From positions 124,001 to 188,000 of the forward strand of contig JACIYT010000002.1 of NCBI GenBank assembly GCA_014359765.1: 64,000 nucleotides of DNA, read 5' to 3'. Of the stretch, positions 26,581-62,202 are shown piece by piece. Made by a program: the position numbers and the translations under genes. The notes below the pieces were generated by a model. The model worked only from the letters and a program-made list of their open reading frames with translations, had not been told where the DNA came from and made no database searches. Each line of letters starts with the position of its first letter. The stretch's first letter is position 1. The DNA comes from Roseovarius sp. (GTDB lineage: Bacteria; Pseudomonadota; Alphaproteobacteria; Rhodobacterales; Rhodobacteraceae).

Positions 26581-26799
26581 ATGGCCAAGGAAGACACGCT
26601 CGAATTTCCCGGTGTCGTCAAGGAACTCCTGCCGAACGCGACATTCAGGGTCGAGCTTGAGAACGGCCATGAGATCATCGCACATACGGCAGGCAAGATG
26701 CGCAAGAACCGGATCCGCGTTCTCGCGGGCGACAAGGTTCAGGTGGAAATGACCCCCTACGATCTGACCAAGGGCCGGATCAACTACCGCTTCAAGTAA
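26581..26799 (+). CDS. infA: Translation initiation factor IF-1
   Basis: [72 protein letters not shown]. Confidence 0.98.
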
Positions 26800-28403: not shown

Positions 28404-28480
28404 CGCCTGCTGCAACCCCTTGCCCGAATTCCTTTTTCGGTGGCACGCCCTGACGTGCTGATCTGGCCTGTTCGAGATGT

Positions 28481-30700
28481 TCAGGGCCGGTTCCCGCTCT
28501 CGTGAAACGTCTCCTGGTTCGCTCCGGGTGTGCAGGTGATCGTGGCGGGACCCTCGGTCAGCGCCCCGATGCAGGCGGCGCGGTGGCCTGCCGCGCGCAG
28601 CCGCGCGAGGATCGCCTCTGCCTGTCCGGGCGCGACCGCGGCCAGCAGCCCGCCGGCGGTTTGCGGATCGTGCAGAAGCTCGTGCCTGGGGCCGCTGCCG
28701 CCCGCGACCGGGGCCGCCGCGCGGTTCGCCTCCAGGATGGTCGAGCGCACGCCCGCCGCGGCCAGCGCCTCGGCCCCCCGATAGGTCGGCACCGCCGCCA
28801 GATCGAGCCGGGCCGCCACCCCCGAGGCGCGGCACATCGCCATCAGATGCCCGGCAAGGCCGAAGCCCGTCACGTCGGTCATGGCATGGGCAGGACCGGC
28901 GAGGATCTCCGCCGCGTCGCCCTGTGGCACCTGAAGGATCCCGAGCAGCGCAGCGATGTCGCGCCCCTCCGCCAGCCCGCGCATCTCGGCGGCCAGCAGC
29001 ACCCCCGCGCCGATCGGCCGCGTCAGGATCAAGGCATCGCCCGTGCGCGCGCCGCCGATGGTGATCGGGTCGCGGGTGAGCAGGCCGGTCAGGGTCAGGC
29101 CGATGCTCGTCTCGGCCCCCATGGTGGAATGGCCGCCGACGATCTCGGCCCCGGCCGCGCGCAGCGCCGCGCCCGCATGTGCCATGATCTCGGCCATGCT
29201 GCGCGCCTGGAGCGTCTCGGACATGCGCGGCAGCGTGACAGAAACGAGCGCCGCCTGCGGCGCGGCCCCCATCGCCCAGATATCGCCCAGCGCGTGCAGC
29301 GCGGCGATGCGCGCCATCACGCCCCAGTCCTCGGTAAAGCCGCGCAGATGATCGGTGGTCAGCACCTGCCGCGCGCCCCCGACCGCGATCACCGCCGCAT
29401 CGTCGCCCGGCCCGCTCAGCACGTCGGCGCGGCGCACGGGCCCCTGCGCCGAGAGCACCGAGGCCAGCACACCGGGCGAGACCTTGGCGCCGCAGCCACC
29501 GCAGAGCGGCGCCGTCTCCGCGGTGTCGGCAAGGGCGCGCAGGCGCGGCATGGCGGGCGCGGGCATCGCGGGCAGATCGTGGAATTTCGCCATGAACTTG
29601 CGGTCGATCCGGTCCTTGAGCCGCCACAGGACCGGCCCGCCAATGGCCACGCCCAGCTTCTCGCCGAGCGCCGATTTCCCGCCCAGCGAGATCAGCTTGA
29701 GGTAATCGCGCTGGGGATGAAAGGCGCGCGTGCGCCCGCCGCTGAGCACCGCGCGCAGATTGTCGCGCAGCACCGGGGCGGCGCGCACGGCAAAGACCCC
29801 GGCCCTGGGGCGCGGCGCATGGGTGAGATGCGCGCAATCGCCTGCGGCAAAGAGCGCCTCCTGCCCCTCGACGCGCAGATCGGCGCCGACGCGCAGAAAA
29901 CCCTCCGCCGTCACCGGCAGGCCGCTCTGCGCCAGCCAGCCATGCGCCCGCGCCCCTGCCGCCCCGGCGACGAAGCCGGCGGCGATCGTGCGGCCATCCC
30001 TCAGAACGACGCCCCCGCCGGTGAGTTCGGTCACCTCCGCACCGGTCAGCACCCGCACCCCCGCCGCGCCGCAGGCGCGGGCAAGCCGCGCGCGCACAAC
30101 CGGCGTGTCGGGGGCGAGGGTTGCGGCGCGCTCGATCAGCGTGACCTCGGCGTGGCCCGCGACCTGCCGCAGCCGAAAGGCCATGGCCAGCGCCAGCTCG
30201 ATCCCGGCGATGCCGCCGCCGATGACTGCCGCGCGCGGCGCAGCCCCCTCCGCCACCTGCTGCACGAACCCTTCCCACGCCTCGGCGAAGGGGCCGAGCG
30301 GCTTGGCCGCCGCGCCATGCTCGGCAAAGCCGGGCAGGTCGGGCATCGCGGAATGGATGCCCACATCGACCGAGGCCACGTCAAACCCCAGATCGCCGCG
30401 CCCCGCGACCGTCAGGCGGCCTGCCTCCGCGTCGATGGCCGTGACTGCCCCCACGATCAGCCGCGCACCCGCAAAGCGCGCCAGCCGCACCAGGTCTATC
30501 TCCAGCTCCGCGCGCCGGTAATGCCCCGCCACCAGCCCCGGCAACATGCCGGTATAGGGCGCGACGGGGTTCGGGTCGATCACCGTGAGGCGCGCGCCGG
30601 GCAGCGGGTCCATCCCCCACATCCGCAGCACGAGCGCATGGGCATGGCCACCGCCGATCAGGACGAGATCGCGCGACAGGGGGATCGGGCTGTGCATCAT
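28481..30700 (-). CDS. selD: Fused FAD/NAD(P) oxidoreductase (NDH-2-like) - selenide, water dikinase
   Basis: N-terminal LVLIGGGHAHALVLRMWGMDPLPGARLTVIDPNP; C-terminal LCGGCGAKVSPGVLASVL, GPGDDAAVI, LTTDHLRGFTEDWGVMARIAALHALGDIWAMGA. Confidence 0.93.
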   Translation of the reverse strand: MMHSPIPLSRDLVLIGGGHAHALVLRMWGMDPLPGARLTVIDPNPVAPYTGMLPGLVAGHYRRAELEIDLVRLARFAGARLIVGAVTAIDAEAGRLTVAGRGDLGFDVASVDVGIHSAMPDLPGFAEHGAAAKPLGPFAEAWEGFVQQVAEGAAPRAAVIGGGIAGIELALAMAFRLRQVAGHAEVTLIERAATLAPDTPVVRARLARACGAAGVRVLTGAEVTELTGGGVVLRDGRTIAAGFVAGAAGARAHGWLAQSGLPVTAEGFLRVGADLRVEGQEALFAAGDCAHLTHAPRPRAGVFAVRAAPVLRDNLRAVLSGGRTRAFHPQRDYLKLISLGGKSALGEKLGVAIGGPVLWRLKDRIDRKFMAKFHDLPAMPAPAMPRLRALADTAETAPLCGGCGAKVSPGVLASVLSAQGPVRRADVLSGPGDDAAVIAVGGARQVLTTDHLRGFTEDWGVMARIAALHALGDIWAMGAAPQAALVSVTLPRMSETLQARSMAEIMAHAGAALRAAGAEIVGGHSTMGAETSIGLTLTGLLTRDPITIGGARTGDALILTRPIGAGVLLAAEMRGLAEGRDIAALLGILQVPQGDAAEILAGPAHAMTDVTGFGLAGHLMAMCRASGVAARLDLAAVPTYRGAEALAAAGVRSTILEANRAAAPVAGGSGPRHELLHDPQTAGGLLAAVAPGQAEAILARLRAAGHRAACIGALTEGPATITCTPGANQETFHESGNRP

Positions 30701-57605: not shown

Positions 57606-58946
57606 ATGGCCAGGAAACTTTTCGGCACCGACGGGATTCGCGGACAGGCCAATGCCTGGCCGATGACCGCGGACATGGCATTGCGCCTCGGGGCGGCGGC
57701 GGGGTGCCATTTCCGCACCGACAAGAAGGAACACCGCGTCGTCATCGGCAAGGATACGCGCCGCTCGGGCTACATGATCGAATATGCGCTGACTGCCGGG
57801 TTCACCTCGACCGGCATGGACGTGTTCCTGCTCGGCCCGGTTCCGACGCCCGCGATCGGCTATCTCACCCATGCGCTGCGCGCCGATGTGGGCGTGATGA
57901 TCTCCGCCAGTCACAACCCCGCCTGCGACAACGGGATCAAGCTGTTCGGTCCTGACGGTTTCAAGCTGAGCGATGCGGCTGAGGCCGAGATCGAGCGTTT
58001 GCTGGAGGAGGGGGTGAGCCCCGTAGCGCCCGGGAATATCGGCCGCGCCCGCCGGATCGAGGATGCGCGCGGGCGCTATGTGGAATATGCCAAGACCACC
58101 TTTCCGCGTGGTCGCCGCCTCGAAGGGCTGCGAATCGTTGTGGATTGCGCCAATGGCGCCGCCTATCGCACCGCGCCCGATGTGCTGTGGGAACTGGGCG
58201 CCGAGGTGATCGCGATCGGGGTGGCGCCGGACGGCTACAACATCAACCTCGATTGCGGCTCCACCCGGCCCGAGGCGGCGGCGCGCAAGGTGCTGGAGAC
58301 GCGCGCCGATCTCGGAATCTGTCTCGATGGCGATGCCGACCGGGTGGTGCTGATCGACGAGACGGGCAGGGTGGCCGATGGCGATCAGATCATGGCGCTC
58401 ATCGCGACCCGCTGGGGGCGCGAGGGGCGGCTGGCGGGCGATACGCTGGTGGCCACGGTCATGTCCAATCTCGGGCTGGAGCGGTATCTGGCCGCGCAGG
58501 GGATCGCGCTCAGGCGCACGCCGGTGGGCGACCGGCATGTGGTCGAGGCGATGCGCGCGGGCGGGCACAACCTGGGCGGCGAGCAATCGGGCCATATCGT
58601 GATGACCGATTTCGCCACCACCGGGGACGGGCTCATCGGGGCGCTGCAATTCCTTGCCGCCATGGTCGAGACCGGCAAGCCGGCGAGCGCGCTGGCGCAG
58701 GTCTTTGCCCCGGTGCCGCAGCGCCTCGTCAACGTGCGCTTTGGCGAGGGCAAGACCCCGCTTGCGACCGATATCGTCCAGAGCGCCGTCGCCGAGGCCG
58801 AGGCCGCGCTCGGCGGTGACGGGCGGCTGCTGATTCGCGCCTCGGGCACCGAGCCGCTCATCCGGGTAATGGCTGAGGCGCTCGATCCCGGGCTGCTCGA
58901 GCAGGTGATGACCCGGGTCGTCGGCGCGGTCGAAGCGGCGTCCTGA
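57606..58946 (+). CDS. glmM: Phosphoglucosamine mutase
   Basis: [67 protein letters not shown]. Confidence 0.97.
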
Positions 58947-58982
58947 CGCGCTCAGCGGCAGGCAAGCGCCGCGCGCATCGGA

Positions 58983-59345
<363 letters not shown>

Positions 59346-59418
59346 CTAGCCAAGCTCCCGCCCCGAGACCAGTCCCATTTGCCGCGCATGTGGAAAAGAG
59401 TTGCCGCGCGCGGCAGGC

Positions 59419-59433
59419 GTTCTATTATTGTTC
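59419..59433 (+). promoter_or_regulatory. LexA (SOS) box, alphaproteobacterial GTTC-N7-GTTC, overlapping a -10
   Basis: GTTCTATTATTGTTC; putative -35 TTGCCG (59401-59406), 16-nt spacer, -10 TATTAT (59423-59428) inside the box. Confidence 0.8.
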
Positions 59434-59435
59434 TC

Positions 59436-59846
59436 ATGTTTCTGCCGCGTCCCCCCGCCGCCCTCGTCGCCGCCCGCCTGCCCCGGGTGCCGCCCGGCGC
59501 GCGCGTCGCGGTGGCGGGGCTCGTCCTGGTGCGCCAGCGGCCCGGCACGGCCAAGGGGGTGGTGTTCCTCACCCTCGAGGATGAGACCGGCGTGGTCAAT
59601 GTCGTGATCTGGCGAAAGGTGTTCGAGCGGTTCCGCCGCGCGGTGATCGCCGGGCGCCTCCTGCGGGTGACGGGGCGGGTGGAGCGGCAGGCGGATGTGC
59701 TGCACCTCGTGGCCGAGGAAATCGAGGATATCTCCGACCTGCTCGACCGCCTCGCCGATCCCGATTTCACACCCGCGGCACCCGATCCGGCGCGGGTTTT
59801 CCCGGGGGGCGGGGGTCAATCGACCCCCTGCCAGTCATCGGGGTGA
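59436..59846 (+). CDS. Orphan OB-fold protein corresponding to the C-terminal domain of error-prone polymerase DnaE2 (remnant or standalone)
   Basis: RVAVAGLVLVRQRPGTAKGVVFLTLEDETGVVNVVIWRKVFERFRRAVIAGRLLRVTGRVERQADVLHLVAEEIEDISDLL resembles the DnaE2 C-terminal OB domain; polymerase domains absent. Confidence 0.8.
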   Translation: MFLPRPPAALVAARLPRVPPGARVAVAGLVLVRQRPGTAKGVVFLTLEDETGVVNVVIWRKVFERFRRAVIAGRLLRVTGRVERQADVLHLVAEEIEDISDLLDRLADPDFTPAAPDPARVFPGGGGQSTPCQSSG

Positions 59847-60169
59847 TATGCCGCGCCGATGGCCAGCCAGCGCAGACGAATCCGCGCCACGCGGGTATCG
59901 CTCCAGGTGCGGAACACCACGTCAAACCCTTCGGCCGTCACGTTCTCGGCGCTGATATCGATGCGCGTGTTGGCGCCGTGGTCGATATCCCAGAGCGACG
60001 GCGTCACCTGCACGACGGGCGGGGCGCGAAAGGCCGGCGAGAAGGTGATGCGCTTGCGCCGCTCGCGCGGGCCGGTGCCTTTCCACATCTCGCCATCGTT
60101 GTGGTAATCGGAAAAGAGCACCTCGTCGCCCTGGGCGACCCCTATGGCCTCTCTGAGAAATACCTGCAT
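59816..60169 (-). CDS. H-type lectin domain protein
   Basis: KRITFSPAFRAPPVVQVTPSLWDIDHGANTRIDISAENVTAEGFDVVFRTWSDTRVARIRLRWLAIG. Confidence 0.85.
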   Translation of the reverse strand: MQVFLREAIGVAQGDEVLFSDYHNDGEMWKGTGPRERRKRITFSPAFRAPPVVQVTPSLWDIDHGANTRIDISAENVTAEGFDVVFRTWSDTRVARIRLRWLAIGAAYHPDDWQGVD

Positions 60170-60225
60170 TTGCGTCCTGTCGCGAACTGACCTCAAATAA
60201 TACAGGTTTTCGGCAGGATTGTGGC

Positions 60226-60263
60226 AAAAATATGCAAGGGGCCGCGCGTGGCGGCCCCTTGCA
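60226..60263 (-). terminator. Rho-independent terminator of the atp operon
   Basis: Minus strand: 13-bp stem TGCAAGGGGCCGC / GCGGCCCCTTGCA followed by TATTTTTG, 18 nt after the atpC stop. Confidence 0.9.
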
Positions 60264-60281
60264 GCATACGGCGCGCGCGGA

Positions 60282-60707
60282 TCAGCGCGCCGAGATCCCG
60301 ATCTCGTCACCCATGGCGACCATATCGGCCAGCAGCTTGGCCGCGTCATCGACGATGCCCGCCGCGCCCGACTGGCTCTCGCGGGCCTGGGCGAGGCGGT
60401 CGGTCGCCTCGTCCACCATGGCCTTGAAGGTCTCGGCGGTCATGTCGGCGCGCGGCACGGCGCGTTCGGCCAGAACCGACACGCCCGCGCCACTGATCTC
60501 GGCGAAGCCGCCGGTAACGATGAATTCCTGCGTGCCGCCATCGGCAGTGACGCGGACCATGCCGGGGCGCAGGGTGGTGATGAGCGGCGCGTGATCGGCC
60601 ATCGCCGTCAGGTCGCCCGCGGCGCCGGGGATCTGCACCTCGCGCGCGGCGAGCGACGCGAGACGACGCTCGGGGCTCACCAGATCGAATTGCACTGTCT
60701 CAGCCAT
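60282..60707 (-). CDS. atpC: F1Fo ATP synthase epsilon subunit
   Basis: [46 protein letters not shown]. Confidence 0.97.
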
Positions 60708-60759
60708 TCACAGGCCTCCCTTGGGTGTGGGGCGGGCCACCGGGGCCCGCCGCAATGGC

Positions 60760-62202
<1,443 letters not shown>

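Follow-up and report, generated by a model that had tools for sequence, protein, structure and literature searches.

A standalone gene for the OB domain of the error-prone polymerase DnaE2, with its own conserved LexA-type box, in Roseovarius and other Rhodobacteraceae

The window, a stretch of 64,000 nucleotides from the genome of a Roseovarius sp. (labelled G000 below), contains an open reading frame encoding 136 amino acids, which by ORF reading runs from an ATG at 59436 to a stop codon at 59844-59846 and is preceded by a LexA-type box and promoter-like hexamers (Table 1). A divergent ferredoxin gene lies upstream, and synteny across relatives placed this gene next to the frame's counterpart, within approximately 550 nt, in 43 of 47 cases. 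Downstream, a convergent frame with an H-type lectin domain (PF09458, 3e-22; 59816-60349, minus strand) overlaps the 3' end by 31 bases, and no Rfam match was found across 58500-60800.

Table 1. Features of the OB-domain locus, in window coordinates.
Feature	Position	Strand	Basis or remark
Standalone DnaE2 OB-domain gene, 136 aa	59436..59846	+	NF004225 profile, genus identity, dN/dS
LexA (SOS) box GTTCTATTATTGTTC	59419..59433	+	Conservation in 44/47 relatives
-35-like hexamer TTGCCG	59401..59406	+	TTG at equivalent place in 33/44 relatives
-10-like hexamer TATTAT within LexA box	59423..59428	+	Predicted transcription start at about the ATG, from spacing
Divergent 2Fe-2S ferredoxin gene (synteny anchor, outside the system)	58983..59306	-	Pfam Fer2

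An earlier note, made from the sequence alone, had taken this frame for the C-terminal OB-fold of DnaE2, and the family searches bore this out. The best family was NF004225 (error-prone DNA polymerase; E = 7e-33), matched over positions 944-1040 of the 1047-position profile with 113.7 bits, as against 30.1 bits (E 1e-07) for the second-ranked family. The generic OB fold PF01336 was found by Pfam (E = 5.6e-14), the SSB family PF00436 scored 16.4 bits, under its cut-off of 26, so that the frame is not an SSB member, and no non-DnaE2 family in Pfam or NCBIfam outscored DnaE2; other OB families were therefore rejected on profile score. Standalone OB relatives within the genus were 70-81% identical to the window OB, and OB domains fused to DnaE2 in the genus were 49-65% identical. 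When 20 standalone OBs were modelled with AlphaFold2, the prediction was an OB barrel preceded by a short extra N-terminal stretch (mean pLDDT 81.8), whose structural neighbours were nucleic-acid-binding OB folds (RPA, Stn1-Ten1 and aminoacyl-tRNA synthetases including class II) with similar scores; as many OB folds score similarly in such a search, the family cannot be told from the fold by itself.

The LexA box ends 2 nt upstream of the start codon and contains the -10-like hexamer, which is separated from the -35-like hexamer by a 16-nt spacer. The pattern GTTC-N7-GTTC alone was not significant in the 64-kb window, with 3 found versus 0.99 expected; the other two perfect copies, at 26623-26637 (minus strand) and 28479-28493 (plus strand), have GC-rich spacers and are within chance expectation. 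Among 47 relatives a perfect box stands upstream of the OB frame in 44. The gap between box and start is 1-3 nt in 40 of these 44, and 33 of the 44 have a TTG 18-19 nt further upstream. Though the single-window count is at chance level, the conserved position across relatives argues that the window box is real and not a chance occurrence. The box, the overlapping hexamer and the spacing described in the earlier note were all upheld, and its suggestion of a near-leaderless transcript fits the spacing, which would place the start of the OB mRNA at about the ATG. The same type of box, GTTCTACACTCGTTC, was found upstream of lexA in G000 (C1:255199-255894). As the box and the promoter arrangement recur across genera, control of the OB gene by the SOS response, as the note had proposed, appears likely.

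When the whole genome was searched for an imuA-imuB-dnaE2 system, as the note had recommended, the DnaE2 profile matched three places in G000: DnaE1, the window ORF (944-1040) and, on contig C34, the only DnaE2 of this genome, which covers profile positions 3-938 and then ends. The C34 protein scored 1209 bits against a curated cut-off of 939, which places its PHP-Pol3-(HhH)2 core in the DnaE2 group, and the motifs PDIDVDFEH and DKDD were found in its translation. Its C-terminus reads ...LRAHPLALLRPILSPAPDHGS, at which point fused relatives continue into the OB domain; OB-less cores generally terminate in ...LRAHPxALLRxxLTPP, precisely where fused relatives pass into the OB. The core and the C-terminal OB domain of DnaE2 in G000 are thus not in one polypeptide, and by its sequence the window ORF is the OB domain and the exact piece that the genome's DnaE2 is missing. 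Mu-like phage genes, recognised by eye, lie immediately upstream of the C34 core (L123:8315-9918), with a one-mismatch LexA-type box retained between them and the core gene.

ImuB is encoded on contig C17 (49% identical to the operon type) and ImuA on C10 (38%), so that imuA, imuB, core and OB lie on four contigs and do not form one LexA-controlled operon or cassette. The earlier statement that imuA, imuB and a polymerase were absent therefore holds for the surroundings of the ORF in the window, but the genome encodes all of them elsewhere. The idea that the locus is a collapsed imuA-imuB-dnaE2 operon was rejected, because the C34 DnaE2 stops at 938 and the window ORF is its missing piece, with imuA, imuB and the core at other loci and the OB gene beside the ferredoxin gene in most relatives. 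The note's alternative, a standalone damage-inducible OB protein, was favoured instead, with the OB-less core of the same genome, on its separate contig, as probable partner; of its two suggested roles, assisting a DnaE2 or ImuB encoded elsewhere is retained, but competing with a full-length DnaE2 is not, as G000 has none.

In other genomes with the split, imuB and imuA are likewise each at their own locus, and in three of them (G016, G032 and G035) the four loci lie on a single chromosome, tens of kb to more than 1 Mb apart. A LexA-type box was seen at imuA in 15 of 16 genomes (a set that includes G110 and G103), at imuB in all 14 split genomes with an imuB start in hand, and at the dnaE2 core in 17 of 17 assessable genomes, where it is of the type GAACAAAA, with one mismatch in 16 and perfect in 1. 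Full-length DnaE2 is also accompanied by imuA and imuB, there without a standalone OB, as in G003, in which a full-length dnaE2 lies downstream of both genes. Compared with the operon type, the ImuB of the split clade (L234, L229) shows approximately 49% identity, and the alignment falls into two segments with a break near residues 155-165, which suggests a clade-specific insert.

The distribution of the two halves was read by hand from search listings. Usable data were obtained for 34 genomes of the genus, two further genomes being too incomplete. The standalone OB was found in 19 of the 34, all 19 of which also carry an OB-less core (in pieces or broken in G005, G019 and G024); full-length DnaE2 without a standalone OB was found in 11, and neither core nor OB in 4 (G007, G011, G017 and G022), so that OB and OB-less core are jointly present or absent in 34/34. 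In a family set of 249 genomes, about one per genus, the standalone OB occurred in 103 (approximately 40% of sampled genera). Relatives known by name in which gene and box are both present include Roseovarius tolerans (DSM 11457), Defluviimonas salinarum, Palleronia spp., Pseudooceanicola spp. and Aestuariivita boseongensis. The gene is thus far from being confined to a single strain, which the earlier note had named as a sign of decay. Of these 103 genomes 97 have an OB-less DnaE2 core, four have partial cores in fragmented assemblies, and one (G297) has a core fragment alongside an intact full-length gene. A near-complete assembly, G110, carries a boxed OB gene (G110:C4:2083582-2083983; L094, L241), imuA and imuB, with no DnaE2 core found, and may reflect either recent loss of the core or a role of the OB without it. 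Conversely, three draft assemblies (G103, G222 and G240) have a core in which no accompanying OB was detected. The OB genes of G019 and G024 lie away from the ferredoxin site and have no box, and in G024 (C6:200614-203485; L091) the core is broken across two frames, so decay of the system may be under way in these two genomes. Outside the family, the matches listed for a class-wide sample showed DnaE2 fused or in short frames, mostly in fragmented assemblies; one candidate split in a single-contig genome (G581) was rejected as a frameshifted DnaE2.

Pairwise dN/dS values for the OB gene were 0.03-0.32 among relatives, indicating purifying selection, and the OB signature was invariant across 20 genera-level relatives. 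In a 72-row tree built by a quick method, the OB-less cores formed one clade (37/37, SH-aLRT 99) adjoining the operon-type full-length DnaE2 of the family. The standalone OBs, together with the OB of G254, separated from the fused OBs with an SH-aLRT of 98 over only 100 columns, and a WPRPP-like motif was present in 44/47 standalone OBs as against 0/39 fused OBs. G254 looks like an intermediate arrangement: its gene order is boxed core, one divergent gene and boxed OB, its imuA has stayed next to imuB, and its OB combines a standalone-type WPRPP start with the KRLFPSRDFH tail of DnaE2.

Mapping the split state onto a DnaE1 tree of the genus gave no fewer than five changes along supported branches, and seven when the best tree was taken. 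Core and OB changed together in 5/5 supported independent pairs (p = 0.0625, five pairs being too few for p < 0.05). In 16 genomes, OB and core distances also correlated once DnaE1 was accounted for (partial r 0.46; p 0.0004 by permutation), a co-divergence that we regard as no more than supportive. The ferredoxin site of OB-less genomes was inspected by eye, with no formal control, and a perfect or one-mismatch LexA box was seen in 10 of the 14 that could be assessed; such fossil promoter boxes at the empty site include those of G020 (L323), G007 (L317), G025 (L321) and G014 (L330), and at the same site G020 carries an OB pseudogene, also recognised by eye. These remains suggest that the OB gene was probably ancestral in the genus and was lost several times with its partners.

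Because a tail-less core is paired with a distant OB gene under its own putative damage switch, DnaE2 in these bacteria probably works as two pieces. The comparisons themselves show the fission of the gene, the match between the OB and the exact part that the core lacks, conserved SOS-type promoter motifs, purifying selection, and gain and loss of the two halves together. The reading that we strongly favour is that the OB domain, once split off, became a component with SOS control of its own in a dispersed ImuAB-DnaE2 mutasome, and that it would act in trans alongside the core, within or together with ImuA-ImuB. An ancestor in the family underwent the fission at the linker between polymerase core and OB domain, after which the detached OB would have gained its own start, the conserved N-terminal WPRPP segment and a LexA-type near-leaderless promoter, and come to adjoin the ferredoxin gene. 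The genes imuA, imuB and core likewise separated, and each has a LexA-type box. Such promoters are derepressed when LexA is cleaved after damage, and the OB domain of C-family polymerases contacts the single-stranded template. We would thus expect LexA to bind these boxes, its cleavage upon DNA damage to induce all four genes, and the free OB subunit to associate physically with the core and/or ImuA-ImuB to give a translesion polymerase, in which it would bind single-stranded DNA and be needed for mutagenesis.

The main rival accepts the same fission and has the OB serving mainly ImuA/ImuB or the replisome as a damage-induced single-stranded DNA-binding adaptor, not the DnaE2 core. G110, which keeps OB, imuA and imuB without a core, speaks for it, as does the WPRPP segment peculiar to standalone OBs, a possible new interface; the co-occurrence of OB and OB-less core throughout the genus set, and nearly so in the family, speaks against it, as does the lack of a standalone OB where imuA and imuB accompany full-length DnaE2, and we consider it unlikely. 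A more specific idea, to which we give only a small chance, is that the OB is a damage-controlled licensing subunit which, through its perfect box and near-leaderless mRNA, is dose-limiting and activates the core as a mutator; ImuAB or another polymerase might borrow it as well. Dose limitation is suggested by the perfect box at the OB compared with the imperfect one at 16/17 cores; such borrowing is hinted at by G110.

Decay, with the OB gene as debris of a truncated DnaE2 whose core works alone, could draw on the cores without a detected OB in G103, G222 and G240 and on the existence, in the passages of PMC3919608 concerned, of some DnaE2s and many DnaE3s without an OB. Debris would hardly keep such low dN/dS values, an invariant signature, a promoter held 1-3 nt from the start and retention in 103/249 genomes of the family, and actual decay differs in look, as in the G020 pseudogene; truncation debris was rejected on dN/dS and conservation, and this explanation is very unlikely. 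That the gene encodes an unrelated OB-fold protein (SSB, aaRS-like or other), whose likeness to the DnaE2 OB is due to chance or to deep homology, would fit the many OB folds with similar structure-search scores, but the large lead of the DnaE2 model over the next family, the identity to fused OBs of the genus and a G000 DnaE2 lacking exactly this part leave it extremely improbable.

The favoured two-piece system resembles the ImuA-ImuB-DnaE2 (ImuC) mutasome, as outlined for M. tuberculosis ImuA'-ImuB-DnaE2 in PMC10421592 and PMC12926913, in its three families, LexA-type boxes and DnaE2 catalytic core. It differs in that DnaE2 is two genes and in that no two of imuA, imuB, core and OB are linked, each of the four loci having a box of its own. 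DnaE2 sequences without an OB were noted in the 2013 survey of Timinskas et al. (PMC3919608), and the core half described here would belong to this class; the relevant passages of that survey do not mention the OB surviving as a separate gene, or an SOS link. The split cyanobacterial DnaE (mentioned in the same survey) is likewise a C-family polymerase from two genes, but both the split and the joining of its halves are the work of an intein; since no intein-like extension was seen by eye on either end here, these halves would stay separate proteins. UmuD' for UmuC, and the standalone ImuB-C of PMC12926913, are likewise small damage-controlled partners of error-prone polymerases, alike in working only: they are not homologous, and in the present case the partner was once a domain of the polymerase itself. 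PMC12926913 lists 11 types of mutasome modules, and no mention of a separate OB gene was found in main-text passages or by term searches of it and PMC3919608. Our partial coverage of the literature gave no description of a standalone DnaE2 OB, so that the detached gene appears, within that coverage, to be without an earlier description; OB-less DnaE2 is already known.

As the OB is a gene of its own, separately regulated, it could be removed or varied in dose while the polymerase is left intact, making the role of the OB domain in error-prone C-family polymerases directly testable. The split is common in the family, so these DnaE2s would count as truncated in surveys that see the core alone. 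The system also offers an example of stepwise domain fission, from an operon through an intermediate such as G254 to four dispersed genes that would act in one SOS response.
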